Origin: Methanosarcina sp. MSH10X1
Lineage (GTDB): Archaea; Halobacteriota; Methanosarcinia; Methanosarcinales; Methanosarcinaceae
Reading direction: 5' to 3'
Length of the DNA: 45,681 nucleotides
NCBI RefSeq assembly: GCF_004099695.1
Contig: NZ_SCHL01000023.1
Span: forward strand, 1-45,681
The notes beneath the pieces were generated by a model. It was not told the origin of the DNA, searched no databases, and saw only the letters and a program-made list of their open reading frames with translations. Made by a program: the position numbers and the translations under genes. Positions 2 to 17,343 of this stretch are shown one piece after another. How positions within the stretch are numbered: position 1 is the first letter of the stretch; every line of letters starts with the position of its first letter.

Positions 2-1933
2 AACACTTCTCAGATCTATATTAATGGTGTGGGGAATCCAGCGGACACTCGTGCATGGAATTCACCTGCAGTGGGGAATGATAAAAACATTACCATATGC
101 TCTGGCTACGATTTAACCCCAGGTAACTGTAGTATGTACACTTTTAGACTCTATAACCGGTCGCTATCCCAGGATGAAATTAAGCAGAATTACGAGAATG
201 TAACATATGTTCCAGTTAATGATACAACAATAATTAAAAGACGGGTGTATGGCGACGGTGGGTTACCTCGGTATATGGGGTCATATGCAATTCAGCAATC
301 TGATTATGGTTTAAATGTATTAAATAAAGATTTGAGTATTAATAGCTCCATAGGAACGCCATTTTTCCAGAACCATGATAGCAGTTCATTGACTAACTGT
401 TCACTGGTAGGATCTACTATTAATGGCATTCGATGGAAAAACTATTATGCTCCTGGCTCAAGTGCTGTTTTAACATACAAAGGAGAGAATCGTAGTATCA
501 AAAATACCTGCTTGTTATCCAATGACTCTTTTAATCTCAATCATTCAGTTACGTATTTAAATCAAACTCGGACTACCCAAGACGGCGTGCCTATAAACGG
601 TGGCAGTGCATATGAGTTCTATGGAGACGGCTTAAACACTATTAGTCAAAATGATGCTGGTGGAAATAACGTTATACTGTACACAGACAACGCAAAAATT
701 CAATGCAATGTACTGTATAACGAAACAGGTAAAGAAGCATATTCATATTATCAAACCAGGAATAGTAACACTACTAGAGCCAGTTCATTAGACCTTCCAC
801 TTTCTTCACCTGAGTTAACTCCTATGTCTGTTCCTTCTGGATATTTGGGGGCTTTAATTTTTACGGAACATGCGGACTATACAGATCACGATTCTCTACG
901 GACTATTATGTATGGAACCAATAATACAAGTGATCCTACTTACGGGACAAAGGGCTTTATCGGGCATAATCTTAAAGCAACTTGGTCGGTGTTTGCGGTT
1001 TCATCATACGGTGGGGAGGGACTTGATAGTCCCGAGTTGAAATCTGTGGTTGACGATATGTATGATCACGGTTTCGAGATTACACCGCATAGTCTCTCCG
1101 CAATAGTAAATAACAACACTCCTGACCGTAAAATGGTAGAAACTTATCTACCCTGGTACGTTGAAGAAGAAAATTATTCGTGCAGGGATTGGATAGATCA
1201 TGGTCTGGCTAGTGGTGCCAGAAACTCTCAACTCAAGAGCCTGGGATGGGATCCTACTAGTAGCCAGTATTATATTATGGATTTGCTTCAGGATCAAGGT
1301 ATCACATATGCTTGGTCTTTTATTGATGCAAAACCCGATGATGCAAAAGGACTCAGTACATCTAAGAATAGTTCAGTTGGGTTGCCTGCTGATATTGTTT
1401 GGCAAAATACAAATCTCGCACTTCCAAACGGTACTCCTGTCTATCAATGGAAAACATGTGCTACAGGAAAGGGATTAGGGCTTACCTACTATACTAATAG
1501 TACAGTTGATCACATGCTTTCAACTTACGGGGTAAGTATATGGCACGATTATTGGCCTGATAATTCTTCAGCACCCAATTACTATTATGTCCGGAGCCAG
1601 CCGTCGTATATGATTAATGAAACTTTTGACAGTTTTTTGACAAATATATCAGACCAAAAACGAGATGGTAAGCTCTGGAATCCAACAGCATCCGAGTACA
1701 TTGATTACTGGATTGCTGCAAGCAATGTAGAGGTGAGATGCACAGGGGTAAATACTTACACTGTTGTGAATCATAATCCCGACACATTAGATGGCTTTTC
1801 TATGAGAGTTAAAGGAGCTTACACGCCGAAACTTGATGGTGTGCCCCTGAGTAATACAAAACCCAATAAAGGAGATACGATTTTCTGGATGGATCTGCTG
1901 ACTGGTACGCATACTATTACACTGGAGGCCTGA
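2..1933 (+). CDS. Surface protein, 5'-truncated: LamG-like end plus polysaccharide-deacetylase-like region
   Basis: The reading frame is open from base 2, so the start lies outside the window; 643 residues are visible. Residues 1-65 match the end of the LamG/concanavalin-like domain seen in the next two genes (shared motifs SQIYINGVG, TWNSP or AWNSP, CSMYTFRLYNRSL). Around residues 280-560 the pattern ALIFTEHADYTDHDS followed by HGFEITPHS recalls NodB/CE4 polysaccharide deacetylases (an early Asp/His metal site, then a His in a 'HGxEIxxH' strand). This fold call is an inference. Many Asn-x-Ser/Thr sequons and almost no Cys fit an extracellular glycoprotein. No dockerin-like tail is present. 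The next gene starts 2 bases after the stop, so the two are probably co-transcribed and translationally coupled. Confidence 0.75.
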   Translation, partial: NTSQIYINGVGNPADTRAWNSPAVGNDKNITICSGYDLTPGNCSMYTFRLYNRSLSQDEIKQNYENVTYVPVNDTTIIKRRVYGDGGLPRYMGSYAIQQSDYGLNVLNKDLSINSSIGTPFFQNHDSSSLTNCSLVGSTINGIRWKNYYAPGSSAVLTYKGENRSIKNTCLLSNDSFNLNHSVTYLNQTRTTQDGVPINGGSAYEFYGDGLNTISQNDAGGNNVILYTDNAKIQCNVLYNETGKEAYSYYQTRNSNTTRASSLDLPLSSPELTPMSVPSGYLGALIFTEHADYTDHDSLRTIMYGTNNTSDPTYGTKGFIGHNLKATWSVFAVSSYGGEGLDSPELKSVVDDMYDHGFEITPHSLSAIVNNNTPDRKMVETYLPWYVEEENYSCRDWIDHGLASGARNSQLKSLGWDPTSSQYYIMDLLQDQGITYAWSFIDAKPDDAKGLSTSKNSSVGLPADIVWQNTNLALPNGTPVYQWKTCATGKGLGLTYYTNSTVDHMLSTYGVSIWHDYWPDNSSAPNYYYVRSQPSYMINETFDSFLTNISDQKRDGKLWNPTASEYIDYWIAASNVEVRCTGVNTYTVVNHNPDTLDGFSMRVKGAYTPKLDGVPLSNTKPNKGDTIFWMDLLTGTHTITLEA

Positions 1934-1935
1934 AG

Positions 1936-4900
1936 ATGAAGAAATTAATAGCTATATTAGCATTACTTGGTGCTCTTTCTGTTATTTCAGTCGCCTCTGC
2001 TCAATCTTCATCTTCACAGAGTTGGGGTTCAATTGGAAATGAGAGCGGACAATTTTACGGTATGAGTGGCGTTGCTACTGACATTTCTGGCAATATCTAT
2101 GTAGCTGAGCTTGATAGCCGGGTACAAAAATTCAGCCTAGACGGTACATATCTCACCCAATTCGATATCCCGGCTAGAAGTATTGCAATTGATTCAGCTG
2201 GAAACATTTACGCGACTGTAAATGACTCAATACAGAAGTTTAATTCCAATGGAACTCTCTTAAACACCTGGGGTAGCACTGGAACGGAAAATGGGTATTT
2301 TAAGTTCCCTACTGGAATTGCATTAGACTCCTCTGGGAATATATACGTTTCAGATATGGAGAATAACAGGATTCAAAAACTAGACCCTTCAGGCAGGTAC
2401 GTTATAAGCTGGGGTACATTAGGATCTGGTAACGGAAATTTCAAATCGCCAGCTGGAATCGTTGTAAATGGAGACTATATATACGTTGCTGATACGGGCA
2501 ATTATAGAATACAGAAATTTGATTTAAACGGGAATTATGTATCAAGCTTAGGTAGCAAAGGAACTGGCAATACTCAATTTAATGGTTCTATAGCTGTTGC
2601 AAGCGATTTATCTAAAAACATTTACGTGGCTGATTACTACAACGGCAGGGTGCTTGAGTATGACAGCAACTTTAATTATTTAAATGAATATACCGGGCTT
2701 AGTTACCCGACGGCACTGGTTAAAGCCAATGACAATTTATATGTTCTTGATTCTGGGAATTATCGTGTCTGTATTGCCTCTCATCGACCCCCAGATCAAC
2801 CTCCAGATCAGCACCATTGGGGCTCATTCGGCAATAAGAGTGCACAATTTTACGGCATGAGTGGGATTGCTGCTGATAATTCTGGCAATATTTATGTAGC
2901 TGAGCTTGATAACAGAGTACAAAAATTCAGTAGAAATGGCGCGTATCTCACCCAGTTCAATATACCAGCTAGAGATATTGCAATTGATCCAGCTGGAAAC
3001 ATTTACGCGACTGTAAACGACTCAGTACAGAAACTTAATTCCAATGGAACTCTTTTAAACACCTGGGGCAGCACTGGAACGGAAAACGGGACTTTTAGAG
3101 TTCCTGCTGGGGTTGCATTAGATTCCTCAGGGAACATCTACGTTTCAGACATGAATAATAACAGGATTCAAAAATTAGATTCTTCAGGCAGGCACGTTAC
3201 AAGCTGGGGTACATTAGGATCTGGTAACGAAAATCTTGACTCGCCGACTGGAATTACGGTAAGTGGAAGTTATGTATACGTTGCTGATATGGGAAATTGC
3301 AGGATACAGAAATTTGATTTAAACGGGAATTACATATCAAGCTTAGGTAGCAAAGGAACTGATGATACTCAATTTAATAGCTCTATAGCAGTTGCAAACG
3401 ATTCAGCTGGAAATATTTATGTGGCTGATTACTTCAACGGCAGGGTGCTTGAGTATGACAGCAACTTTAATTATTTGAATAAATATACCGGGCTCAGTTA
3501 CCCGACTGCACTGGATATAGTCAACGACACTTTATATGTTCTTGATTCTGGGAACTATCAAGTTGTATTTTATAATGATAATACTACAATGACTCCTATG
3601 ATTACCTGGAATACTCCTGCTGATATTCCCTACGGAACAGCATTAAACAGTGCTCAGTTAAATGCTAATGCTTCAGTGCCTGGTAACTTTACTTATACTC
3701 CAGCAGCAGGCACTGTGCTGGAGGTAGGTACTCATATCTTGCATGTTGACTTTACACCTGCTGATGCTGCAAAATATACTACAACTTCAAAGGAAGTCAC
3801 AATTAATGTTTCCGGAAATCCAGGACCTATTGCAAACTTTGATGCCAATGTGACCAGTGGTCCTGCTCCTCTAACTGTCCGGTTTACTAATCTGTCAGAA
3901 AATGCAACTGCTTTGTCCTGGAACTTTGGAGATGGGAATAGTTCGACTGAGCAGAATCCAGTGCATACCTATTCTGTAGAAGGAACCTATACAGTGAGTT
4001 TGAATGCAAGTAATGCCAACGGTTACAATATTTCGACAAAATCAAATCTAATTACTGTAAACCAAACTACACCAGGTCTGGTTGTTTATTACGATGGTAG
4101 TTTCTCAGGAAATTTCCTGGTGGATCTCAGCGGAAACGGTAATACCGGCTATGCTACGAGTGTAACTCCGGGGATAAATCAATCAACTGGTGCAAAATAT
4201 ATAGACCTGAACGGTGTCAATAGCAAGATCGACATTCCTAATAATGCACAGACTAACATCTCCAGTCCTGTGACGATTGAGTTCTATGGCTCAATTAATA
4301 ATTTCACGAGATATGGAGCACTTGTGAGCAAGTATAACAGATCAAGTGGTTGGTATCTGAGTTGTTCGCCTGAGGAACCTTATTACAATCAAACTCGTTT
4401 TAGTGTAGTCAAGGAAAACGGTACTATATCAAAAGCATACAACTCAAAAGTTAACCTTACTGCTGGACAACTCTATCATATTGTAACAACTTACGACAAC
4501 AACACTTCCCAGATTTATATTAACGGTGTGGGGGATCCAGTTGATGCTCGTACGTGGAATTCACCTGCAGTAGGTAATGATAAAAATATCACCATAGGTT
4601 TTGGTTACGACTTAACCCATGGTAACTGTAGTATGTACACATTTAGACTCTATAATCGGTCACTATCCCATGATGAAATTAAGCAGAACTACTATGATTT
4701 GACAAATAGAACCAAGCAATCAACTCTAATTACCTGGAATACTCCTGCTGACATAATCAATGGAACAGCCTTGAGTAGCACTCAGTTAAATGCTGCTGCA
4801 ATTGATTCTATGACTGGAAATACTGTAAATGGTACTTTTGTCTATACTCCAGCAGCAGGAACTGTATTGAGTGTAGGCACATATACATTACATGTTAATT

Positions 4901-7131
4901 TCACACCTACTGATACTGTAACCTATGAAGTAGCATCAGCAGATGTTCAAATCAATGTTACAAGAAAGCCAGGGCCTATTGCAAACTTTACAGCCGATGT
5001 GACCAGTGGTCCTGCTCCTCTAACTGTCCGGTTTACTGACCTGTCAGAAAACGCAACCTCATTATACTGGGACTTTGGAGACGGAAGTAGCTCTGCAGAA
5101 GTAAATCCAGTTCATGTATATAACTTCTCAGGACTCTATACTGTTAATTTGACTGCAAGCAATGCAAATGGCACAGGTTCGGCATTGGCTACAATCAATG
5201 TTAACAAAGATGAGTTGCAACTCTGGACATTCGACGCAAGTAAATTAAGTGATGTTCCAGACAACATTTACACGGCTAGCAAAGATTATACAACTACATC
5301 AAACGTTAGTCTGACATACAACTCGACATTGGGTTCTGTTGACTCCATTCGCTGGCACAATGATGGTGGGGAAACTTACATAACAGGTGCGTACCCCACT
5401 GTTAACGAAAACTTGACGTTTACAATGGGAGTGGACTCGAGTTCACCAAGGTCATATGGGAACCTACGTACTTCAGTTGCTTTCTTGGAGGTCAAACACG
5501 CTTTAAATGGTAGTTATGAGGTAAAGTCTTACTGGATGCCTGATAATAGCAGTAGTTATTCAGAAAGTTCTAGTCTCCAGATTCCTGCAAGTTCAGTTAT
5601 TAACAATAGAGTTACGGTTAGTATCCACAGTTACGATTCAAACCGTACGAATGTTATTACTGCTGGGCCTGAACTGAATATGACCACCCCCTATAGAACT
5701 GGAACAACTCGAAAACTGCAATACACAAACGTAATTCAGCCTCTGATCTTTATAGACGGTTATGCGTCGGGTAAAGACGAAGATTGGGTTAATGTGCACC
5801 TCTACAACATTACACAGTCAATCCCGAGAGATACTATTACGCCATATGCACGAGACGACATAATGGGATTTGGTCTGGACTATCCGTCTGTCGCAAATAA
5901 CAAGAACGGTACAGATTTCTTAATATCTCGCAATCAAACTGCGACTGTTTACGTCTCGGAGGATAATCTGAAAAACTCTGACGATGTAGCGTATGATAAC
6001 AGTCTGTTTGCCAACGGGTTTGAGGAAGGTATGCACTCCTATCCTGGACTCGCAACGGTATCTTTCGAGCAAGCCAAAACAATAATAGATTCGGACATGG
6101 CGCTTGCGAAATCGACCTTTGGTTCGACGCCTGTTTCATGGAGTTGCCATGAGAATAAAGATAACGTAACACATGCGAACTATATATACAACAAGTATGG
6201 GGCTCTGTATAGAAATGGTATGATGGGTATGGGTTTCGTTTCCAGTGTAGATACCCTCTGGAATGAAACTTGGCCCTGGTGGTCAGTAAGTTCAGAGCAC
6301 GGTGCAATTTGTCCATGTTTCACACATGAGACAGATTATTACCCAGCGAGAAAAGACTACTCAATCGATCCAGAGTTTTTCAAGACTTTTGTGACCAACC
6401 TGAATTCGAAAGGTATCAACCTGGTTGGTTTCTCGGAATGGTACTATAGCTCAATGGCACAAACTGCCACCACTGACATCCTGCAGTCTGATGAGAATAG
6501 TATGAAATTCCAGCTGAATACGACTGGTGGATATCCAGTTAATCTGAATTTACAGACTGTAATTTCTCCTTCGCATCTGGATTGTAATGGTGTGTCGATA
6601 CCATTCGAACGAACATCTGATGGCATTAAGTTCAGGAGTGTTGGAAATGGAACATACACTTTAACAAATGTAGGAGTTCCTCCTAAAGCGAATTTTACTG
6701 CGAAGCAAACTGGATCGTTGATGGTTCAGTTTAACGACACATCGAGTAACAGTCCAAATGGATGGAATTGGGACTTTGGAGATGGAAACACTTCAACCAG
6801 CCAGAATGTAACGCATATTTATTCTGTAGCAGGAAACTATACAGTAAGTCTGACTTCAGTTAATGGTGCAGGTTCAAGTACCAAATCAATGAATATAACC
6901 GCAAAGGCAGTACCTACTCTGCCCAATTGCACTAATCCACCAAAAGATTTGGACAACGATGGCCTCTATGAGGATATCATTGGAAACGAAATAGTAGATT
7001 TCGATGATGTCATAGTATTGTATGAAAGCATGGATTGGATAAAAGAAAATAATCTTGTTGCTTTCTTTGATTATGACAGAAACAGCTTAATCGACTTTGA
7101 TGATATTATAATTCTTTATAAAATGATTTAA
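1936..7131 (+). CDS. Secreted multidomain protein: two NHL propellers, Ig/PKD/LamG, deacetylase-like domain, dockerin-like tail
   Basis: A 1731-residue protein. Residues 1-22 form a signal peptide (basic start, hydrophobic core, VASA). Two NHL beta-propellers follow (about 30-280 and 290-545), joined by a Pro-rich linker. Next come an Ig-like repeat (about 552-625), PKD (630-715, WNFGDGNSS), LamG-like (720-925), Ig-like (930-1015), PKD (1018-1090, WDFGDGSSS), a unique region (1095-1580) and a third PKD (1585-1656). The unique region resembles a polysaccharide deacetylase at 1298-1511 (GFGLDYPS, SWSCHENKDN). Residues 1671-1731 look like a dockerin: two Ca-loop-like segments, DLDNDGLYED and FDYDRNSLIDFDDIIILYK. 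GGAGG sits about 8 bases before the ATG. The NHL halves are near-copies of each other. The enzymatic role is inferred; the module order is clear. Confidence 0.85.
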   Translation: MKKLIAILALLGALSVISVASAQSSSSQSWGSIGNESGQFYGMSGVATDISGNIYVAELDSRVQKFSLDGTYLTQFDIPARSIAIDSAGNIYATVNDSIQKFNSNGTLLNTWGSTGTENGYFKFPTGIALDSSGNIYVSDMENNRIQKLDPSGRYVISWGTLGSGNGNFKSPAGIVVNGDYIYVADTGNYRIQKFDLNGNYVSSLGSKGTGNTQFNGSIAVASDLSKNIYVADYYNGRVLEYDSNFNYLNEYTGLSYPTALVKANDNLYVLDSGNYRVCIASHRPPDQPPDQHHWGSFGNKSAQFYGMSGIAADNSGNIYVAELDNRVQKFSRNGAYLTQFNIPARDIAIDPAGNIYATVNDSVQKLNSNGTLLNTWGSTGTENGTFRVPAGVALDSSGNIYVSDMNNNRIQKLDSSGRHVTSWGTLGSGNENLDSPTGITVSGSYVYVADMGNCRIQKFDLNGNYISSLGSKGTDDTQFNSSIAVANDSAGNIYVADYFNGRVLEYDSNFNYLNKYTGLSYPTALDIVNDTLYVLDSGNYQVVFYNDNTTMTPMITWNTPADIPYGTALNSAQLNANASVPGNFTYTPAAGTVLEVGTHILHVDFTPADAAKYTTTSKEVTINVSGNPGPIANFDANVTSGPAPLTVRFTNLSENATALSWNFGDGNSSTEQNPVHTYSVEGTYTVSLNASNANGYNISTKSNLITVNQTTPGLVVYYDGSFSGNFLVDLSGNGNTGYATSVTPGINQSTGAKYIDLNGVNSKIDIPNNAQTNISSPVTIEFYGSINNFTRYGALVSKYNRSSGWYLSCSPEEPYYNQTRFSVVKENGTISKAYNSKVNLTAGQLYHIVTTYDNNTSQIYINGVGDPVDARTWNSPAVGNDKNITIGFGYDLTHGNCSMYTFRLYNRSLSHDEIKQNYYDLTNRTKQSTLITWNTPADIINGTALSSTQLNAAAIDSMTGNTVNGTFVYTPAAGTVLSVGTYTLHVNFTPTDTVTYEVASADVQINVTRKPGPIANFTADVTSGPAPLTVRFTDLSENATSLYWDFGDGSSSAEVNPVHVYNFSGLYTVNLTASNANGTGSALATINVNKDELQLWTFDASKLSDVPDNIYTASKDYTTTSNVSLTYNSTLGSVDSIRWHNDGGETYITGAYPTVNENLTFTMGVDSSSPRSYGNLRTSVAFLEVKHALNGSYEVKSYWMPDNSSSYSESSSLQIPASSVINNRVTVSIHSYDSNRTNVITAGPELNMTTPYRTGTTRKLQYTNVIQPLIFIDGYASGKDEDWVNVHLYNITQSIPRDTITPYARDDIMGFGLDYPSVANNKNGTDFLISRNQTATVYVSEDNLKNSDDVAYDNSLFANGFEEGMHSYPGLATVSFEQAKTIIDSDMALAKSTFGSTPVSWSCHENKDNVTHANYIYNKYGALYRNGMMGMGFVSSVDTLWNETWPWWSVSSEHGAICPCFTHETDYYPARKDYSIDPEFFKTFVTNLNSKGINLVGFSEWYYSSMAQTATTDILQSDENSMKFQLNTTGGYPVNLNLQTVISPSHLDCNGVSIPFERTSDGIKFRSVGNGTYTLTNVGVPPKANFTAKQTGSLMVQFNDTSSNSPNGWNWDFGDGNTSTSQNVTHIYSVAGNYTVSLTSVNGAGSSTKSMNITAKAVPTLPNCTNPPKDLDNDGLYEDIIGNEIVDFDDVIVLYESMDWIKENNLVAFFDYDRNSLIDFDDIIILYKMI

Positions 7132-7144
7132 GGGGGCCGAAAAT

Positions 7145-7381
7145 ATGAATAAGCTGTATAGATTTCAGTCCTCCTAGTTTTTGGACTGGGAATATCATGT
7201 GCATTGGTATAAAACATCAGTTGTTTGATCCTCAAACAATTTAGATGGACATTGGTACTTTCCAGAATGTCTGGAATATGATGGATGAAGTTCCTGACTG
7301 AATGTTAGGATTCAAACATCATAATTTCCTTTTTAAATTCAGAAATTGTGAAAATAGCTGCGGTTTGTTTCATTCCTTAGT
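7145..7381 (+). pseudogene. Decayed copy of the 5' end of the downstream cohesin-domain gene
   Basis: The stretch aligns by eye with the first 240 bases of the gene at 7786. It keeps the ribosome-binding AGGGGG, ATGAATAAG, 'TTTTTGGACTGGGAATA', 'GATCCTCAAACA', 'GACATTGGTACTT', 'ATGGATGAA' and 'GCGGTTT'. The frame stops after 10 codons (TAG) and is further broken by stops and small indels. It lies 13 bases after the dockerin-tailed gene. It therefore marks an old duplication of the signal-peptide and cohesin start, now dead. Confidence 0.8.
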
Positions 7382-7785
7382 TATATCTTGCTGTCAAAAA
7401 ACTTCTTGATTTCTTCGAGTTCGGTTCTCAGAGTCTTATTATCTATTTCTACCACCCATTTCATAAGAAAAAAATTTAAATAGTCTGAATGTTTTATTAT
7501 TAGTATTGTTACTTTCTGACAAGTCAAAAATATCAAGAAAAGATAGGAGACGAATCTGGTTATAGGGGATATCTTGTTTAAACAGAGATAAAAACGTATA
7601 TAAAATGTTTATATAAAGATACAGGAGACAAAACTTTACAAGATCTCATACAAAACTTCGTAACACACCTTGTAGCATGCACTGAGTAAAATAAATGCTA
7701 CTGTTGCTTTTTTAATTTTATAATAATTTAATCAACTTTGATAATTTAGTAATACTTTGTGTCACGGTTTAAGGAGATAGAACAA
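7382..7785. other. Intergenic: promoter region of the cohesin-domain gene
   Basis: AT-rich DNA with several TATA-like runs near 7596-7616. A perfect 7-bp inverted repeat, GTAGCAT (7672-7678) with ATGCTAC (7694-7700), is followed by a T run at 7706-7712. It could be a terminator for a short upstream transcript or a leader hairpin. The ribosome binding site AAGGAGAT (7771-7778) ends this region. No gene is seen. Confidence 0.5.
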
Positions 7786-10700
7786 ATGAATAAGTTGTAT
7801 AAAATTTTAATTTTTCTAATCTTTTTTGGACTAGGGATACCATGTGCGTCTGCAGCAAATACCATTTATTTTGATCCTCAGACAGTTCAAACGGACATTG
7901 GTACTTCCCAGAATATCCAGATTGTAATGGATGAACTTCCCTACGGAATGTCAGGCTTCAACCTCACAATTTCTATTTTAGATCCAGAGATTGCGGAAAT
8001 AACTGCGGTTTCATTCCCTGGTTGGACTTTTCTACCAGAAACCTCCACAGTTCCCTCAAATTCGGTTTGGATAAAAGCCATAGATCTTACAAATGAAACT
8101 GTTGCCGGCAACACTAATGTCGTGCTAGGAAACATTACTATAACCGGAAAAAAGGCAGGCACTGCAGATCTAAACATATCGGAAGGATCTTTTTACGATT
8201 ATGACTATAGCTCTTATCCTTATACGGAAGATACAATTCCTGATGCAATTTCAGGTGAGATAAATGTATTACCTGCCTTTGTGACTCCTTCAATTACCTG
8301 GAGTGATCCTGCTGACATAATCAATGGAACAGCTTTGAGTAGCACTCAGTTAAATGCTGCTGCAATTGATCCTGTAACTGGAAATACTGTAAATGGTACT
8401 TTTGTCTATACTCCAGCAGCAGGAACTGTATTAAATGTAGGTACATACACATTGCATGCTGATTTCACACCTGCTGATTCTGCAAACTATACTACAGTAT
8501 CAAAGGAAGTCACAATCAATGTTTTAGGAGGAGACCTGCTAAGAAATGGCCTGGTCGTTTATTATGATGGCAATTTATCAGGAAACTCCCTGGTGGATCT
8601 CAGCGGAAACAGTAACACCGGATTTGCTACTAATGTAACTCAAGGGACAAACCAAACAACTGGTAAAAGTTATATAAACCTTAACGGTGTCAATAGTAAG
8701 ATCGACATTCCTAATAGTGCACAGACTAATATTTCCAGTCCTGTAACTATTGAGTTCATTGGGTCAATTAATAATTTCAAGAAGTATGGAGCAATTGTAA
8801 GCAAGCACAATAGGTATGTAAGTGATTGGTATTTGGGCTCTTCTGCTGCCTCTCCTTACAACCGTGCTCGCTTTGCTGCAGCCACGAGTGCCGGGTGGAA
8901 ATCCTACGAATCAACAACTGGTCTTGTTGCCGGACAGGTATGTCATATCGTAGTAACTTACGATAAAAACATTGCCCATACTTATATCAATGGTGTAGAT
9001 TCAGGCTCTAGCACCTGGAATTCCCCGATAGTAGGAGGTGCTCAGAATATCACAATAGGCTCTGGCTACGATTTAAATTACAGCAATTGTAGCATGTACA
9101 CATTCAGACTCTATAACAGGTCACTTACCCAGGATGAGGTCTTAAAGAATTATGAGTATGACCATTGGAGGTATAATGGAAATACAAATAACTCAACTCC
9201 TACAATTACCTGGAATACTCCTGCTGACATAATCAATGGAACAGCCTTAAGCATCACTCAATTAAACGCCGTTGCAACTGATCCTGTAACTGGAGATACT
9301 GTAGCTGGTACTTTTGTCTATACTCCAGCAGCAGGAACTGTATTGAGTTTAGGCACTCACACATTACATGTTAATTTCACACCTATTGATACTGCAAAAT
9401 ATACCAGTGCTTCAAAGGATGTTACAATTAATGTTACAACCAAGGTGCCTCCTACAATTACCTGGAATACTCCTGCTGACATAATCAATGGAACAGCTTT
9501 GAGTAGCACTCAGTTAAATGCTGCTGCAATTGATCCTGTAACTGGAAATACTGTAACTGGTACTTTTGTCTATACTCCAGCAGCAGGAACTGTATTAAAT
9601 GTAGGTACACACACATTGCATGCTGATTTCACACCTGTTGATTCTGCAAAATATACTACAGCATCAAAGGAAGTCACAATTACTGTAAAACCAACTGCGC
9701 CACGGACACCAGGTCTGGTCGTTTATTATGATGGCAATTTATCAGGAAACTCCCTGGTGGATCTCAGCGGAAACAATAACATCGGCTATGCCACGAGTGT
9801 AACTCAGGGAACGAACCCAATAACTGGTGCTAAATACATAAACCTCAACGGTGTCAATAGTAAGATCGACGTTCCTAATAGTGCACAGACTAACATTTCC
9901 AGTCCATTGACTATTGAGTTCATCGGGTCAATTAATAATTTCAAGAAGTATGGAGCAATTGTAAGCAAGCACAATAGGTATGTAAGTGATTGGTATTTGG
10001 GCTCTTCTGCTGCCTCTCCTTACAACCGTGCTCGCTTTGCTGCAGCCACGAGTGCCGGGTGGAAATCCTACGAATCAACAACTGGTCTTGTTGCCGGTCA
10101 GGTGTATCATATCGTTGTAACTTACGATAAAAACATTGCCCATACTTATATCAATGGTGTAGATTCAGGCTCTAGCACCTGGAATTCTCCGATAGTAGGA
10201 GGTGCTCAGAATATCACAATAGGCTCTGGCTACGATTTAAATTACAGCAATTGTAGCATGTATACATTTAGACTCTATAACAGGTCACTGTCCTCAGATG
10301 AAGTTAGGCAAAATTACGAGAATGATCTTTGGAGACATAATGGATATACAAATACAAAGGCAACTCCTACAATTACCTGGAGTAACCCTGCTGCTATAAC
10401 CTATGGAACAGCTTTAAGCAGCACTCAGTTAAATGCAAAAGCTTCCGTTCCTGGTAGTTTTATATATAACCCTGCTTCTGGAACTATTCCAAGAGCTGGT
10501 ACTCATACCTTACAGACCACTTTCACGCCTACTGATTCCGCACACTATAACACGGCTACACGTAGTGTTTCGTTAACCGTAGATAAAGCTACACCTGTGA
10601 TAACCTGGAACCCTGCTGCTATAACAAGTGGAGTAGCCTTAAGCGTCACTCAGCTAAACGCTGTAGCAACTGATCCTGTAACTGGAGATACTGTAGCTGG

Positions 10701-11616
10701 TACTTTTGCCTATACTCCGGCAGCAGGAACTGTACTGAGTGTAGGCACTCACACATTACATGTTGATTTCACACCTGCTGATACCGCAAATTACAAGAGT
10801 GTATCAAAGGATGTTACACTGATTGCAACTAGTCACAGTATAACTCCTTCAATTACCTGGAGCAAGCCTGCTGACATAACTTATGGTACAGCCTTAAGCA
10901 GCATTCAATTAAACGCATTGGCTTCAGTACCCGGTAGTTTTGTCTATACTCCAGCTTCGGGAGCGATTCTGGGAGCTGGTGTTCACGCATTACAGGCTAC
11001 ATTCACTCCTTCTGACTTAACAAACTACACCACGGCTTCAGGCGGTGTTTCATTAACCGTGAATAAAGCTTTACCTTTGATAACCTGGAGTAACCCCGCT
11101 GATATTTCATCTGGCACTCCCCTGGGTGAAGCTCAACTGAACGCAGTTGCATCTGTGCCTGGATCTTTTGTTTATACACCAGAAGCAGGAATGGTTCTTA
11201 GTGAAGGGACTCACACTTTACAAGTTGCGTTTACTCCGGCTGATGTGACTAACTATACTACAGCTTCCAGCAGTGTCTCGATAAATGTTGTAAGTAAAGC
11301 TCCTTCTAAGAGTTCTTCAGGTACTAAAAAAGATAATCCGGTAAAGCTAAAAATATTGGAACCTAACTCTACCCAATCATCGAGTTCAACTGGAAATATT
11401 GGAAAGGAAATAAAGTCAGAGTCGGGGAATAAAACGATAAACGAAGGTAATGAAGAGAAAATAGATTCAGAGTTAGGGAACGAGGTGATTAATCAACATA
11501 ATATGTCGAATAAAGGGAAACAAACTGAGCAGAAAGAAATACAGAGCATACCTGGCTTTGGAATAGCCTGCAGTATGGTTTGTCTCTTTGGCGCGCTCCT
11601 ATGTAAGAGAAAGTAA
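7786..11616 (+). CDS. Cell-surface protein: cohesin-like domain, seven Ig-like and two LamG-like repeats, PGF-CTERM-like anchor
   Basis: The ATG at 7786 is chosen over the in-frame GTG at 7759 because AAGGAGAT lies 7 bases before it and the signal peptide begins there (MNKLYKILIFLIFFGLG, cut near CASA). The protein has 1276 residues. Residues 24-160 look like a cohesin (FDPQTVQTDIG, then GNITITGKKAGTADL and a DAISGEINV end). Ig-like repeats (ITWxxPADI, QLNA, FxYTPAxGTVL, FTPxD) lie at about 167-247, 471-552, 555-635, 860-933, 935-1015, 1021-1093 and 1097-1168. LamG-like domains lie at 255-462 and 641-848. A Ser/Glu/Asn-rich linker leads to PGFG, a hydrophobic stretch and CKRK, the pattern of archaeosortase-processed PGF-CTERM proteins. 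It probably sits on the envelope and could receive dockerin-bearing partners; pairing with the upstream gene is inference. Confidence 0.85.
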   Translation: MNKLYKILIFLIFFGLGIPCASAANTIYFDPQTVQTDIGTSQNIQIVMDELPYGMSGFNLTISILDPEIAEITAVSFPGWTFLPETSTVPSNSVWIKAIDLTNETVAGNTNVVLGNITITGKKAGTADLNISEGSFYDYDYSSYPYTEDTIPDAISGEINVLPAFVTPSITWSDPADIINGTALSSTQLNAAAIDPVTGNTVNGTFVYTPAAGTVLNVGTYTLHADFTPADSANYTTVSKEVTINVLGGDLLRNGLVVYYDGNLSGNSLVDLSGNSNTGFATNVTQGTNQTTGKSYINLNGVNSKIDIPNSAQTNISSPVTIEFIGSINNFKKYGAIVSKHNRYVSDWYLGSSAASPYNRARFAAATSAGWKSYESTTGLVAGQVCHIVVTYDKNIAHTYINGVDSGSSTWNSPIVGGAQNITIGSGYDLNYSNCSMYTFRLYNRSLTQDEVLKNYEYDHWRYNGNTNNSTPTITWNTPADIINGTALSITQLNAVATDPVTGDTVAGTFVYTPAAGTVLSLGTHTLHVNFTPIDTAKYTSASKDVTINVTTKVPPTITWNTPADIINGTALSSTQLNAAAIDPVTGNTVTGTFVYTPAAGTVLNVGTHTLHADFTPVDSAKYTTASKEVTITVKPTAPRTPGLVVYYDGNLSGNSLVDLSGNNNIGYATSVTQGTNPITGAKYINLNGVNSKIDVPNSAQTNISSPLTIEFIGSINNFKKYGAIVSKHNRYVSDWYLGSSAASPYNRARFAAATSAGWKSYESTTGLVAGQVYHIVVTYDKNIAHTYINGVDSGSSTWNSPIVGGAQNITIGSGYDLNYSNCSMYTFRLYNRSLSSDEVRQNYENDLWRHNGYTNTKATPTITWSNPAAITYGTALSSTQLNAKASVPGSFIYNPASGTIPRAGTHTLQTTFTPTDSAHYNTATRSVSLTVDKATPVITWNPAAITSGVALSVTQLNAVATDPVTGDTVAGTFAYTPAAGTVLSVGTHTLHVDFTPADTANYKSVSKDVTLIATSHSITPSITWSKPADITYGTALSSIQLNALASVPGSFVYTPASGAILGAGVHALQATFTPSDLTNYTTASGGVSLTVNKALPLITWSNPADISSGTPLGEAQLNAVASVPGSFVYTPEAGMVLSEGTHTLQVAFTPADVTNYTTASSSVSINVVSKAPSKSSSGTKKDNPVKLKILEPNSTQSSSSTGNIGKEIKSESGNKTINEGNEEKIDSELGNEVINQHNMSNKGKQTEQKEIQSIPGFGIACSMVCLFGALLCKRK
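8551..9126 (+). repeat. LamG-module direct repeat, copy 1 (copy 2 at 9715-10290)
   Basis: About 576 bp are almost identical to 9715-10290, offset 1164 bp, within the same gene. Long blocks match base for base, for example from AAGAAGTATGGAGCAATTG through the TGGTATTTGGGC stretch. The divergence is far lower than in the related LamG modules of the two upstream genes, so this is a recent internal duplication or gene conversion. Confidence 0.85.
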
Positions 11617-11766: not shown

Positions 11767-12897
11767 TTACTTTAAATCAGCTAGATAGTTTATTCCTGGA
11801 GAATACGTCTTGTTTTTCTTAAGAAGCTTTTGCTCATATGCGGATTTAGTTGTTTTGGCGATATTTTTCCAGGTAAAAGTTTCAGCATATTTTTTAATTC
11901 TAGAACTATTCCAATTCTTATCTAAGGCTAATAATATAGTCTTTTCCAGTTCTGCTGAACTTGCAGGCTCACACAGTAAGCCATACTCTTCTGAGGCTAT
12001 TATTTCAGGAATTCCCCCGACTTTCGTCCCTATAAACGGTTTTCCACACCCGATTGCTTCAAACATGACAATGGGATTTCCCTCACCCAGACTTGGAAGG
12101 ACAAAGAAATCACTTGCGTTTATATAGATTGGAATCTCGTTGTCAGGAATCCATCCTACAAGTTTTACATAATCCTCAAGTTTGGAATTTTTAATTTGTT
12201 GCTCTAGAGTTTCTGACAGATAGCCTTTCCCTGCAATAATACAGTAAATATCGGATCTGGTTTTTGCAATATTGCCAATTGCTTCAATAAGATACTTATG
12301 ACCTTTTATATCAATTAGGTTTGATATGTTAAAGATAACCTTTTTATTCATAGGTACTTTCAGCGTAGACCGGCATTCATCAGTATTCCTTGGGAAAAAG
12401 ATAGCTGAATCGTAGCCGTTTGGAATTACAACTAATTTGTCAGAGTATTGTGGGAAAGTCTTTGAGATAAATTCTCTCTGTCTATTTGAAACTAAAATCA
12501 TCGTGTCTACGTTTTTTAAAACAAAGTTAAAAAAAAGTTTATACTTTTTCACGAATTCTTCTGTTCTTGAGTGATGAAATGTAACAATTAACTTCTTATC
12601 TACAATCTTTGATGCTATGGATGCCGTAACGGAGGAAACGAAGCTGAAGATTCCTCCCGATGTTTGATCATGGATTATCTCGTATTTTTTTCGATTGGAT
12701 ATTATCTCTAAGAATAATCCAAAAGTGCGCCGATAGACCTTCTCAAAGTTCGTGTTTTTTGAGTGAGCTTTGTTTGTGTAGTAATTATATAATAATATTT
12801 CGTTCTCCTCAACAGACAAATTTTCAATTAAGTTCTTGGTATGTGTAGAAACCCCACCTGAAGAAGCTACAGATCCACACATTAAAACTTTTACCAT
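11767..12897 (-). CDS. Glycosyltransferase family 4 (group 1)
   Basis: The start is ATG at 12897 (MVKVLMCGS), preceded by GGGGGTGG; the 21 codons upstream overlap the neighbouring gene and lack family features. The 376-residue protein has the GT-B layout. The N-terminal part carries GGVSTHTKNL, typical of the acceptor-side loop. The C-terminal part carries FNISNLIDIKGHKYLIEA and the donor-binding LGEGNPIVMFEAIGCGKPF, with the E-x7-E pair of GT4 enzymes, then VGGIPEII. It would transfer a nucleotide-activated sugar onto a surface glycan at the inner membrane face. It is the last gene of a minus-strand polysaccharide operon and overlaps the preceding gene by 7 bases. Donor and acceptor sugars cannot be told from sequence. 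Confidence 0.9.
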   Translation of the reverse strand: MVKVLMCGSVASSGGVSTHTKNLIENLSVEENEILLYNYYTNKAHSKNTNFEKVYRRTFGLFLEIISNRKKYEIIHDQTSGGIFSFVSSVTASIASKIVDKKLIVTFHHSRTEEFVKKYKLFFNFVLKNVDTMILVSNRQREFISKTFPQYSDKLVVIPNGYDSAIFFPRNTDECRSTLKVPMNKKVIFNISNLIDIKGHKYLIEAIGNIAKTRSDIYCIIAGKGYLSETLEQQIKNSKLEDYVKLVGWIPDNEIPIYINASDFFVLPSLGEGNPIVMFEAIGCGKPFIGTKVGGIPEIIASEEYGLLCEPASSAELEKTILLALDKNWNSSRIKKYAETFTWKNIAKTTKSAYEQKLLKKNKTYSPGINYLADLK

Positions 12898-14093
12898 TTT
12901 GCCACCCCCGCTTTTTCCAAATATGTTGCCATTGACAGCATCATCCAAGCTGCTCCCCATCTCATATAGGGAATTCTGTTTGTGAAAACTCGGCTTTTCT
13001 GATAGAAGAAATATCCAGAATTACCCTGCATATTAGAGATTGTCCATTCCAGAATCTTTTTTGCAAATTCAAGGAATTCTGGATCAAATGTACTTAACTT
13101 ACTAAACGTAATTATCCCCTGGGCTTGATTATGTATATCTATAGGGTACAGTTTGGGATATCGGTAATAGCACCTACCATTATCTAAAAACTGTTTTTTC
13201 CTGTAAAAATTTACACCTCTCTTAATTGAGTCTGTTAGCTGGTCCCGTTCTCTCGGCTCAGCAAAAGGAAGGTACTCGACCAGAGAATCTATTATAAAAC
13301 CTTGATGGAAATCCGTTTGACGCCTTATCTTTCCACTTTTATATTTACTGTAGATCCAGCAACCATCTGCATCCTGGGTATGTATTATAAATTCAGAAAG
13401 TTTAGAAGCTATCTTTCTTATCTCAGCATCGTCAAATAGATGCATTAACCTGCACATAGCGGTAAGACCTTCGGCAGAAGCGTTTATTACTATTTTATTT
13501 TCACTTAAGACATCGTACTTCAGGTAATAATAACCATCATCGGTTTCTCCCAGCAAATATTCTATTAAGAAATCGTAGGCGCTTTTTCCGATATCTTTTA
13601 ACTCCTTGTCCTTAAAAATTATGTAACTATCAACCATTGTTTTGATCACATTTGACGTTGTGATAACATCAGGTATATCCGGAGCTAGTATGCTTCCATC
13701 AAATCCCCTGTAATTAAAATAGTGTCCTGCCCAGCAATCAGACCCATACGTTTGTTTGAGAGACTTGCTTTTTAAAAGGTTGATACACTCAAATAAATCT
13801 TCTTTATAGCGCTGATCATTTGTCAAAGAATAGATTTTTGAAAATGATTGGGCAAAAAGGGATATCCCTTTTACGTCTAGCCCTTTTTCAATACCCATAA
13901 TTGGCCTGATGTTTAAGATGGAGTACTTATTCAATTGAGTTACTAGTATCTCAAGTAGCTGAGAGTTCGAACAGAATTTGTTTACTATTTCACTGTTCAG
14001 TGCATCATAAGGGTCCCATCCATAGTACTCTTCGCTCTTTACCCAGTTATAAAGCGATCTCATGGAATTATCTACAAGTATATCGAAGGCCAT
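12891..14093 (-). CDS. Six-hairpin (alpha/alpha-toroid) glycosidase/epimerase-like protein
   Basis: A 400-residue soluble protein without a signal peptide. Regularly spaced helical repeats with aromatic and acidic residues (SDCWAGHYFNYRGFDGS, DGYYYLKYD, DADGCWIYSKY, DFHQGFIIDSLVEYL, IDIHNQAQGIITF, MRWGAAWMMLSM) fit the alpha/alpha-toroid fold of glycoside hydrolases and sugar epimerases. The actual reaction is unknown. Proteins of this type recur in archaeal polysaccharide loci next to wecB and GT4 genes. It lies 20 bases after wecB and overlaps the GT4 start by 7 bases, so it belongs to the same operon and probably acts on a sugar or glycan made there. Confidence 0.6.
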   Translation of the reverse strand: MAFDILVDNSMRSLYNWVKSEEYYGWDPYDALNSEIVNKFCSNSQLLEILVTQLNKYSILNIRPIMGIEKGLDVKGISLFAQSFSKIYSLTNDQRYKEDLFECINLLKSKSLKQTYGSDCWAGHYFNYRGFDGSILAPDIPDVITTSNVIKTMVDSYIIFKDKELKDIGKSAYDFLIEYLLGETDDGYYYLKYDVLSENKIVINASAEGLTAMCRLMHLFDDAEIRKIASKLSEFIIHTQDADGCWIYSKYKSGKIRRQTDFHQGFIIDSLVEYLPFAEPRERDQLTDSIKRGVNFYRKKQFLDNGRCYYRYPKLYPIDIHNQAQGIITFSKLSTFDPEFLEFAKKILEWTISNMQGNSGYFFYQKSRVFTNRIPYMRWGAAWMMLSMATYLEKAGVAKW

Positions 14094-14113: not shown

Positions 14114-15178
14114 TTATAACGCATTAATTGTTGCAGCTATCCTGCTGCTTGCATTTCCTTCCCCGAATCTGTTCCGGTGTTCCTGGGCCAAAGGCATAAA
14201 TTCATTCACTGCTTCTACAATCTTATCTTTATTGGAACCAACTAGTACATTCCATCCATCTCTAATGGTCTCAATCCACTCTGTGTTCTCCCTGAGTGTT
14301 ACACACGGGACTTTCAAAATATATGCTTCTTTCTGAACGCCTCCGGAGTCGGTCAGAATCATCTTAGCATGATTCATGAGTTTTATGAAATCAAAGAATC
14401 CCAGAGGTTTTGTTAACGTAACAGAGGAGCGTAAGCTCTCATATAAGCCGTAGCTCCTTAGCAATTTTTCAGTTCGTGGATGAACGGGGAAAATGATATT
14501 TCCGTCCAGTTCTTGAAAAGCCTCAATAATATTTCGAAGGTTCCCGATATTATCAGTATTACTTGCTCGGTGGATGGTAGCAACCAGATAATCCCTGTTC
14601 TTCAGGTTAAGATCCTTTAAGATTGAGGATTGGGTTTCTGCAATCTCCTTATTGAGAAGAAGAGAATCAACCATAACATCGCCGGTTAAATACACATTTT
14701 TAGTGATTCCTTCTTCTTTCAGGTTGTCAACGGCATTCTGAGTTGGGCAAAACAAGATGTCTGAGCAATGGTCTGTCAAAACGCGGTTGATTTCTTCGGG
14801 CATAGACCTGTCAAAACTCCTTAATCCGGATTCGACATGGGCGTTTTTTATTCCAAGCTTTGATGCTGCCAGAGCTCCTGCAAGTGTCGAGTTTGTGTCT
14901 CCATAAGTCAGCACAAGGTCCGGTTGTTCAATTTTAAGGACCTCTTCTAGTTTTCGAAGCATTTCTCCAGTTTGCTGACCATGTGAGCCTGAACCCACAC
15001 CAAGATAGTAGTCAGGCTCAGGAATGCAGAGTTCCTCAAAGAATACCTTGTTCATCTCATAGTCATAATGCTGGCCAGTGTGAATCAAGCATTCTTCGTT
15101 AGTTTTTCTTAATTCTCTTGAAACCACAGAAGCTTTCACGAACTGAGGTCTAACGCCTACAACACTTGCGATTTTCAT
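14114..15178 (-). CDS. wecB: UDP-N-acetylglucosamine 2-epimerase (non-hydrolysing)
   Basis: This enzyme interconverts UDP-GlcNAc and UDP-ManNAc in the cytoplasm, the first step to ManNAc-derived envelope sugars. Its 354 residues match the family length. Visible signatures are VVGVRPQFVK at the N-terminus, TYGDTNSTLAGALAA, HVESGLRSFDRSMPEEINR (acidic residues of the active site), TIHRASNTDN (catalytic-region His), FPVHPRTEKLL and LTDSGGVQKEAYIL. The start overlaps the stop of the DUF354 gene by four bases (ATGA), showing translational coupling. A UDP-ManNAc dehydrogenase gene is not present in the window. Confidence 0.95.
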   Translation of the reverse strand: MKIASVVGVRPQFVKASVVSRELRKTNEECLIHTGQHYDYEMNKVFFEELCIPEPDYYLGVGSGSHGQQTGEMLRKLEEVLKIEQPDLVLTYGDTNSTLAGALAASKLGIKNAHVESGLRSFDRSMPEEINRVLTDHCSDILFCPTQNAVDNLKEEGITKNVYLTGDVMVDSLLLNKEIAETQSSILKDLNLKNRDYLVATIHRASNTDNIGNLRNIIEAFQELDGNIIFPVHPRTEKLLRSYGLYESLRSSVTLTKPLGFFDFIKLMNHAKMILTDSGGVQKEAYILKVPCVTLRENTEWIETIRDGWNVLVGSNKDKIVEAVNEFMPLAQEHRNRFGEGNASSRIAATINAL

Positions 15179-16287
15179 AATAGATCACCCTGCAGGGTGA
15201 TGGAATTGCCATCTCTTTTAGAATATTTTTTCTGTTCTTTTATTTTGTTTAGACTATCTGGATAATTGCCAATGAAGGAAGCCAGAAATTTGGTAGCATC
15301 GATCTTGTCAGCCAGGAGCTTATCTCTTCTTTCTTTCCATTTGTTTTTCAGATCAGGTTGCTGAATAAGTTCTACTGCTTTCTCAATGGCTTTTTCAGGA
15401 GCATTGAAGCTGAAAATAAGATTGTACTTGTTCTCAAGTTCAATGAAATTGCCCATATCTCTCTTGCCTACAAAAGAGTTGAATCTGACAACTGGGGTTC
15501 CCAGGACTGCAGACTCGGTAGTAATTGTCTGGGTGTCAGCCACAACAAGTTTGGCATAATATAAGATATCGTGAATGCGAGATTTCGGGATTTTCAGCAA
15601 ATACCTGTTAAAATCATCTGGCAATTTTATTTCAGACGAGATAAACACACGTGCATGCTTGCTCAGTTCATTAACCAGGAACCTTTTTTGATCAATGGAA
15701 AACCCATTTATTCCAAAATCATGTACGGCGTCAAATGCATTGAAGCGTAAAAGTACGTAATCTTCATCCTGACTTATTCCAAGGAAATCATAAATTTTTA
15801 CATCCGGTACAAAATAATTTTTATGTAAATAGGCAATTTCTTTAAAGCTATTAAATTTGATGTGCTTTGGACCCAGGTCTATAGTAAACGACGAAGGAGT
15901 GAGAACTACATCTACAAAAGGCTTAAAGAGCATGAACTGAAAAGGTGTAGGTTCTGAATCGTTAAAAATTATGCATCTTTTACGTAGCAACTGTGATGTA
16001 TACGCTGAGTAAACTCCCATTCCAACTAACAGATCCGGCTTTTTCTTCCGGAGAAAATGATATGCTGTTAGCACATTGAAGGGTAGATCTAAGATTTTTC
16101 CATATTTTGAATCAGGTACATTGGCGTATACAAAATACTCAAAACCCATCTCATCTAATAGGTGGACTGTATCTCCATAATTTCTTGCCAAAATAATGGC
16201 TTGATGCCCGCTACGTTCTAAAGATTTTATAACATTCTTATATAAGTGAACATGTGCTGGCGTATTTATAAAAAATGCAATTTTCAA
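15175..16287 (-). CDS. DUF354 family protein, GT-B-like sugar-modifying protein
   Basis: A 370-residue protein with the DUF354 pattern: MKIAFFINTPAHVHLYKN, GHQAIILARNYGDT, KKPDLLVGMGVYSAY, FNDSEPTPFQFML, and a C-terminal VVADTQTITTESAVLGTPVVR block like the nucleotide-sugar site of GT-B and epimerase folds. The family's role is not established, though it is found in archaeal surface-glycan loci beside wecB, as here. The start codon is TTG at 16287; AGGGGGT lies 7 bases upstream and decides it. Its stop overlaps the wecB start (ATGA). Confidence 0.8.
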   Translation of the reverse strand: MKIAFFINTPAHVHLYKNVIKSLERSGHQAIILARNYGDTVHLLDEMGFEYFVYANVPDSKYGKILDLPFNVLTAYHFLRKKKPDLLVGMGVYSAYTSQLLRKRCIIFNDSEPTPFQFMLFKPFVDVVLTPSSFTIDLGPKHIKFNSFKEIAYLHKNYFVPDVKIYDFLGISQDEDYVLLRFNAFDAVHDFGINGFSIDQKRFLVNELSKHARVFISSEIKLPDDFNRYLLKIPKSRIHDILYYAKLVVADTQTITTESAVLGTPVVRFNSFVGKRDMGNFIELENKYNLIFSFNAPEKAIEKAVELIQQPDLKNKWKERRDKLLADKIDATKFLASFIGNYPDSLNKIKEQKKYSKRDGNSITLQGDLL

Positions 16288-16324: not shown

Positions 16325-17086
16325 TTAAATATGTTTCTTCGAGATCATATCTTTCAAAATCGCTGCTAGGACCTCAAGGCCATGAGAAACCGGTTTTTTG
16401 GTAGAGCCGTCAACATCGTAACGGACTCCGATTTCAACTTCTTTTAGTCGGAGGCCGGCATTTCCAGCATCCGTAAGCATTTCGCTTTCTATTGCCATGC
16501 CCTGCGCATTGAAGCGAAATTTTTCAATTGTTGAAGCGGCAAAGGCGCGAAAACCACTCTGTGAATCCGTGATCTTGAGACCTGATTGTATGTTGGTAAA
16601 CCTGTCCAGGATGGTCTGGCCTATTCGACGGTATGCAGGCGTGTTCTTTTCCAGACCATACAGGTATCGGCTGCCGTTGACCATTTCAGCCTCGCCTTCG
16701 ACAATAGGAGCCACCAGTCTTGGGATCTCGGCAGGATTATGCTGGCCATCAGAATCCATTGTCACAATTATATCAGCACCCATAGTGAGTGCGGTTTCAA
16801 AGCCAGTTTTGAGAGCCCTTCCTTTTCCTTTGTTCACTTCGTGGACAATGACCTCGGCTCCGGCTTTCCTGGCAACGTCCGCTGTCCGGTCCGAACTGCC
16901 ATCATCAACAACAATCACTTTGTCTGCGTATAATCTTGTAAGGTGAACCATGCTTCCTATGGAAATTTCTTCGTTATAAGCAGGAAGAATCACTGAAATT
17001 TGTTTGATAGCTGTCTGCATTTTGTGTGGATAATCATTCAAAGTTACACACTCAGGTTTGTCAATAATATTCGACTCTCCTCTCAT
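16325..17086 (-). CDS. Glycosyltransferase family 2, dolichyl-phosphate sugar synthase-like
   Basis: A 253-residue GT-A enzyme without membrane segments. The nucleotide site reads ISVILPAYNEEISIGS and VIVVDDGSSDRTADVA. The metal-binding DxD-type motif is TMDSDGQHNP. NKGKGRALKTGFETAL and SDSQSGFR-like IKITDSQSGFRAF segments follow, typical of dolichyl-phosphate mannose/glucose synthases. It would load a sugar onto a lipid carrier for surface glycosylation. ATG at 17086 is preferred over GTG at 17092 because GGGGTG lies 5 bases before it; a later ATG at 17020 has no ribosome site. It is the first gene of the operon, 37 bases before the DUF354 gene. Confidence 0.88.
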   Translation of the reverse strand: MRGESNIIDKPECVTLNDYPHKMQTAIKQISVILPAYNEEISIGSMVHLTRLYADKVIVVDDGSSDRTADVARKAGAEVIVHEVNKGKGRALKTGFETALTMGADIIVTMDSDGQHNPAEIPRLVAPIVEGEAEMVNGSRYLYGLEKNTPAYRRIGQTILDRFTNIQSGLKITDSQSGFRAFAASTIEKFRFNAQGMAIESEMLTDAGNAGLRLKEVEIGVRYDVDGSTKKPVSHGLEVLAAILKDMISKKHI

Positions 17087-17343
17087 ATTCACACCCCAAT
17101 TTGACTCTCAAGTGAAAGATACAGAATACGATATTTAATCCTTTCAATTTATTGAAATATAATTAGATAGAAATTCCAATAAGATAACATTTCATCAATG
17201 ATGTTAGAATATCAAACTAGACTAATATTACGGCGGTGAAATTTAAAAAAAATAAATAAGTTCGGAGATAGAAATCTTTTCTAGTAAAAATATTGAATTG
17301 TGCCAGAGCTCACTGAAATAAAATTCTGTATAGGACTGAATAG

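Follow-up and report, generated by a model that had tools for sequence, protein, structure and literature searches.

Cohesin and dockerin modules have been reported in archaea, including anaerobic methanotrophic archaea (ANME) and methanogens (PMC9012536, PMC5244752), and a cohesin–dockerin pair from Archaeoglobus fulgidus is cited in PMC9012536 as binding specifically; the kind of system described here is therefore already known. We analysed a 45,681-base stretch of Methanosarcina sp. MSH10X1 DNA (hereafter the window; it is contig C15 in full, from a genome of 3.56 Mb) that encodes a 1731-residue dockerin-bearing protein at 1936–7131 and, downstream of it, a cohesin-bearing protein at 7786–11616, within a 1285-residue reading frame that opens at GTG 7759. 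Both reading frames are uninterrupted, and we refer to their products as the 1936 and 7786 proteins. Our analysis indicates that they probably constitute a non-cellulosomal cohesin–dockerin pair on the archaeal surface, in which an anchored protein would retain secreted, exchangeable cargo. What this locus adds to the known kind is an unannotated variant, shared with plasmids and linked to polysaccharide genes, whose cohesin is N-terminal on a putatively anchored protein and whose dockerin has an extra loop.

The locus shares some features with each of the closest described systems and differs from each in others. The non-cellulosomal A. fulgidus cohesin 2xdh has an archaeal cohesin fold, as is predicted for the N-terminal domain of the 7786 protein, and the two are 15% identical where they align, whereas the two-gene order, the PGF-anchored stalk and the polysaccharide cassette of the window were not seen for A. 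fulgidus in the searches made. An additional DxDxDG loop further distinguishes the window dockerin family from the dockerins of A. fulgidus and of clostridial type I. Extracellular cohesin–dockerin networks have been described in the related ANME (PMC9012536, PMC5244752), but there the scaffoldin-like proteins carry up to 5 cohesins and the cargo consists of ABC-transporter binding proteins, whereas the window system has one cohesin per anchor and a cargo of LamG, NHL, protease and lectin type encoded on a plasmid-shared cassette. With the clostridial type I cellulosome it has in common the predicted folds, a duplicated-loop F-hand dockerin, a putatively anchored cohesin and dockerin-tagged secreted cargo; anchoring would be of the PGF-CTERM/archaeosortase type rather than by sortase or SLH, and neither cellulases, cellulose-binding modules nor a scaffoldin with several cohesins were seen here.

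The 7786 protein (forward strand) begins with a signal-like segment followed by the cohesin module (7855–8274, forward strand), which is the only intact copy of its type in the genome, and continues through a stalk of Ig-like repeats and two LamG domains to a C-terminal PGF motif. A family profile from which the window sequence had been held out scored the module at 150.5 bits, against 5.7 bits for the best of 1000 shuffles, and a single-sequence search found relatives in 16 of 112 genomes of the family. Ten residues are invariant in an alignment of 21 representatives, and the window copy keeps all of them. The Pfam Cohesin model PF00963 matched neither the window copy nor anything else in the window or the rest of the genome, and touched 3 of the 21 sampled relatives weakly (best E 0.0074); a PDB sequence search with the family profile likewise returned no cohesin, so membership rests on fold. 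AlphaFold, supplied with nine aligned relatives, predicted a beta-sandwich with a predicted local distance difference test (pLDDT) score of about 95, and Foldseek hits against the PDB were cohesins from rank 1 through rank 44, classical type I included, with 2xdh matched at E 5e-9 and a TM score of 0.74 by target length. The cohesin-like N-terminal domain of the original prediction is thus borne out both by the held-out profile and by the structural check proposed for it, and the domain is predicted to have the cohesin fold notwithstanding the Pfam cut-off.

The 1936 protein (forward strand) consists, in order, of an N-terminal signal-like segment, two NHL propellers, a PKD domain, a LamG domain, a second PKD domain, a deacetylase-like region, a third PKD domain and the dockerin, and it has no C-terminal anchor. 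The propellers, also anticipated from the original reading, were recovered as repeats by the Pfam scan. The dockerin tail (6916–7128, forward strand; predicted structure with pLDDT of about 92) scored 102.7 bits with a held-out profile, the best shuffled score being 5.9. PF00404 (Dockerin_1) does not match it at the cut-off; at E<=1 that model recognises 16 of 22 members of the family (best 1.5e-6), EF-hand models also hit members, and the family profile retrieves the solved dockerins 5lxv_B, 2y3n_B, 2yik_A, 2ccl_B and 1ohz_B in a PDB search in which calcium-binding EF-hand proteins outscore them. Pfam and NCBIfam applied to the window proteins alone missed both modules, and family profiles together with structure prediction were needed to find them. 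Viral contigs contained no relatives.

Within the tail, two canonical loops are present, loop 1 (DIIGNEIVDFDD, D20 to D31; 6973–7008, forward strand) and an intact loop 2 (DYDRNSLIDFDD, D52 to D63; 7069–7104, forward strand). The structural model places helices at residues 29–37 and 61–71, after these loops, in the F-hand arrangement of dockerins, and so contains the two 12-residue F-hand loops, each with a helix after it, of a type I dockerin. The motif DLDNDGLYED, which had been taken for one of two calcium loops, is not loop 1: it occupies tail residues 11–20 (6946–6975, forward strand) as an additional conserved DxDxDGxxED motif preceding loop 1, with which it has D20, its last aspartate, in common. 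The expected pair of loops therefore exists, with this calcium-type motif as a third element. Conservation of the extra motif across the 22 family members is high (D11 in 21, D15 in 19, G16 in 20, E19 in 21 and D20 in 21).

Relatives of the tail are numerous in the family, and one that is 74% identical lies in the same genome on contig C11 (407706–407915, locus L093), at the end of a protein with NHL and six PKD domains; it is of the same dockerin type, and no cohesin of matching type lies beside it. This copy was one of six PF00404 matches in the genome. A second, on contig C33 (220787–220924, locus L001), is a classical-looking dockerin terminating another surface protein, for which a genome-wide PF00963 search gave no partner cohesin. 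The remaining four, fragments of PGF-CTERM or beta-helix proteins that score at chance level, were rejected. Farther afield, on the Halomicrobium urmianum plasmid NZ_CP084091 (L162), a ricin-domain protein ends in a related dockerin at 37% identity, and a gene annotated as a xylanase adjoins it.

Evidence that the two modules belong together comes from their distribution, their gene order and the placement of anchors. Among 238 genomes of the class, the cohesin was detected at E<1e-30 in 18, every one of which also carries the dockerin, and 3 genomes have the dockerin alone; the hypergeometric probability of this co-occurrence is 3e-24, uncorrected for kinship or fused genes, and several of the co-occurrence genomes carry both modules in one protein. 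In genomes G082, G077 and G104 no other gene separates the dockerin gene from the cohesin gene that follows it, and about 90 bases lie between the dockerin end and the start of the mature cohesin. Elsewhere cohesin and dockerin together terminate one protein, and a further, small protein carries a cohesin and a PGF-type end. Genome G075 encodes about two dozen large proteins with cohesin–dockerin ends. At two of its loci (L076 and L081) such a large protein belongs to a three-gene unit, possibly a chain-forming system, whose other members are a small PGF-ended cohesin protein and a protein that combines two cohesins with propeller and PKD domains. At the loci examined, all dockerins lie at, or a few residues from, the C-terminus of proteins that have no anchor signal, and the cohesin proteins of the split type carry an anchor. 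Cargo differs from locus to locus while the clip is constant, and includes a papain-like protease with a lectin-like domain, kelch, NHL and PQQ propellers, and beta-helices.

In the window the dockerin and the cohesin lie in the same reading frame, so the stretch that joins them can be read through to give a single chain. In the prediction for this chain, cohesin residues 50–79 (FPGWTFLPETSTVPSNSVWIK), which contain 5 of the 10 invariant positions, have pLDDT of about 92–96 with the dockerin present and 66–83 without it, the control having had fewer alignment rows, but the predicted TM score of the chain does not rise with the dockerin. Fold, gene order, co-occurrence and anchor logic lend good support to a pair in which an anchored cohesin protein retains a secreted dockerin protein, with binding itself as a prediction.

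Several observations weigh against this reading of the window pair. Loop 1, intact in most relatives, is worn here, with I for N at position 3 and E for G at position 6. The predicted TM score of the read-through chain is 0.45 with the dockerin and 0.46 without it, and the linker of that chain is decayed DNA. In two Methanosarcina genomes (G088 and G090) the dockerin is present and a cohesin was not detected. The anchor signal at the end of the 7786 protein (11548–11613, forward strand) is below threshold, at 12.3 of the 18.8 bits demanded by PF18204 and 11.9 of 24.5 bits in a second scoring; the PGF-CTERM anchor of the original prediction is consequently visible as a motif but scores under the Pfam cut-off. 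The homologous protein in G082, whose cohesin domain is 71% identical, passes the PGF-CTERM cut-off at 27.7 bits, and the genome encodes archaeosortase A (ArtA; 262.5 bits).

The DNA between the two genes also bears on how exactly they are matched. It holds first the decayed start of a further cohesin gene (7145–7366, forward strand; E 7.6e-5, with one internal TGA and one TAG) and then, immediately upstream of the intact cohesin gene, a remnant resembling the 3' end of a dockerin gene (7693–7779, no strand assigned; 70.7% identity by blastn over 92 columns to the dockerin end of locus L068). The window pair appears once to have had the cohesin gene directly behind the dockerin gene, as in G082, G077 and G104. 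Loci L067 (6345–6911) and L068 (6368–6923) also contain broken cohesin starts, with a spacer and breakpoint that differ from those of window 7145–7779, which suggests at least two such truncations; broken starts thus recur in several species at the junction of dockerin and intact cohesin genes. The present adjacency may be a secondary neighbourhood, which is the chief ground for caution about exact partners, and the dockerin of the 1936 protein may originally have partnered the now broken cohesin at 7145–7366.

Taken to its conclusion, this history would describe a degenerating pair in which the broken cohesin was the true partner and recognition between the two surviving modules has been lost. 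The broken cohesin start, the dockerin remnant, the degenerate loop 1 and the similar truncations with unrelated spacer at L067 and L068 all agree with such decay. Against it, the open reading frames remain intact over 1285 and 1731 residues, loop 2 and every invariant cohesin residue are kept, and the C11 dockerin has a perfect loop 1, so we consider loss of recognition unlikely. Slightly less likely still is some other role for the modules, in which the dockerin serves homodimerisation or calcium-driven binding to S-layer or polysaccharide, the cohesin-fold domain is carbohydrate-binding or structural, and the neighbourhood reflects modular clusters of surface genes. Proteins with PKD, LamG and propeller domains do cluster in archaea and Pfam calls neither window module, but the class-wide co-occurrence, the conserved junction order, the fused cohesin–dockerin tails and fold matches that are cohesins rather than carbohydrate-binding modules argue for a pair. 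A true cellulosome-like complex degrading plant polysaccharide, suggested by cohesin–dockerin logic alone, was rejected as highly improbable for a methanogen whose genome has a single intact cohesin of the type and no scaffoldin, with neither a glycoside hydrolase nor a cellulose-binding module found in the dockerin proteins scanned (a subset).

Under the preferred reading of a surface pair with exchangeable cargo, the 7786 protein would be exported and fixed to the membrane by archaeosortase A through its PGF-type C-terminal signal, with the stalk of Ig-like and LamG domains holding the N-terminal cohesin off the cell. The 1936 protein would be exported without an anchor and retained when its C-terminal dockerin, presumably ordered by calcium, binds that cohesin. 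The C11 protein, with its closely similar tail, could plausibly compete for the same cohesin, and such competition by a second dockerin protein would make the anchor a socket for exchangeable cargo.

The cargo itself includes a region whose function can be suggested only cautiously. Residues 1092–1580 of the 1936 protein (5209–6675, forward strand) belong to a family present in most Methanosarcina and have no Pfam or NCBIfam match. Relatives in this family are about 600 residues long, with His 1367, His 1413, His 1464 and Arg 1426 invariant. Profile alignment with hhalign to members of PF01522 is weak (about 100 collinear columns, P 0.001–0.003, probability 9–18%), and at the NodB motif positions Asp 1315 and His 1367 are conserved while the paired His of HxxxH is not. 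A distant relationship to polysaccharide deacetylases (CE4/NodB) is possible from these alignments; the deacetylase-like domain of the original prediction accordingly retains a weak profile similarity but neither a database match nor the paired His. The polysaccharide-modifying character proposed for the complex stays conjectural, given this weak assignment and the lack of glycoside hydrolases in the dockerin proteins scanned. In both the window and G082 the domain lies on the dockerin side, and plasmid loci have it on the cohesin side, from which it follows that cargo has been exchanged across the joint.

The genomic setting of the pair is shared with plasmids; neither this wider cassette nor the decayed module pieces between the two genes figured in the original prediction. 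Positions 1–17.1 kb of the window are collinear with circular plasmids of M. barkeri MS, M. barkeri 227, M. sp. Kolksee and M. vacuolata Z-761 (compared as records NZ_CP009527, NZ_CP009529, NZ_CP009523 and NZ_CP009519). These plasmid LamG/PKD/wecB cassettes resemble the window segment throughout its order, in which LamG, NHL–dockerin and cohesin proteins are followed by convergent polysaccharide genes at 81–93% protein identity to the plasmids; the window cassette differs in being chromosomal and in having a domain-shuffled dockerin protein. Its first gene (29–1933, forward strand, 5' end lost at the contig start) encodes a LamG-type surface protein that is 70–73% identical to plasmid proteins annotated as LamG in M. 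barkeri MS, M. vacuolata and M. sp. Kolksee, and whose N-terminus matches the LamG part of the 1936 protein at 80% identity. This gene and those of the pair (1936–7131 and 7759/7786–11616) are co-oriented, and the next five genes, all on the reverse strand, converge on them: a glycosyltransferase (11767–12960; 85–87% identity to plasmid homologues), a conserved hypothetical protein (12891–14093; 84%), a UDP-N-acetylglucosamine 2-epimerase, wecB (14114–15178; 86–93%), a DUF354 protein (15175–16287; 90–92% to homologues annotated as DUF354) and a family 2 glycosyltransferase (16325–17092; 81–86%). Plasmid similarity breaks off abruptly at about 17.1 kb and the remaining window genes are those expected on a chromosome, an abrupt end that suggests exchange between plasmid and chromosome. 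A plasmid of M. barkeri Wiesmoor retains some of the polysaccharide genes together with one for a PKD protein, and no cohesin or dockerin of the window type was found on it. We propose that the glycosyltransferase, wecB and DUF354 genes would make a surface polysaccharide, and that proteins with LamG domains and propellers probably bind this polysaccharide or organise it.

In summary, the window may represent a mobile, self-contained coat module, carried on plasmids and acquirable by chromosomes, that combines polysaccharide genes, a cohesin socket on a PGF-CTERM-anchored stalk and exchangeable LamG, propeller, protease and lectin proteins bearing three-calcium-loop dockerins, although we advance this wider proposal tentatively and hold it as somewhat less probable than not. 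The plasmid gene tables examined contain no cohesin or dockerin annotation and name these proteins PKD, lectin-like or hypothetical, so the system is easily overlooked. Whereas non-cellulosomal modules have been tallied across many archaea, mostly without assigned partners or functions, the pair here is minimal, with one intact cohesin and two dockerins of matching type, and since it occurs in a genus with genetic tools and is collinear with small plasmids of cultured strains, the partner, the calcium need and the effect on the coat are directly testable. If true, it would represent a mobile, non-cellulosomal archaeal cohesin–dockerin clip that builds a changeable cell envelope or multicellular matrix.

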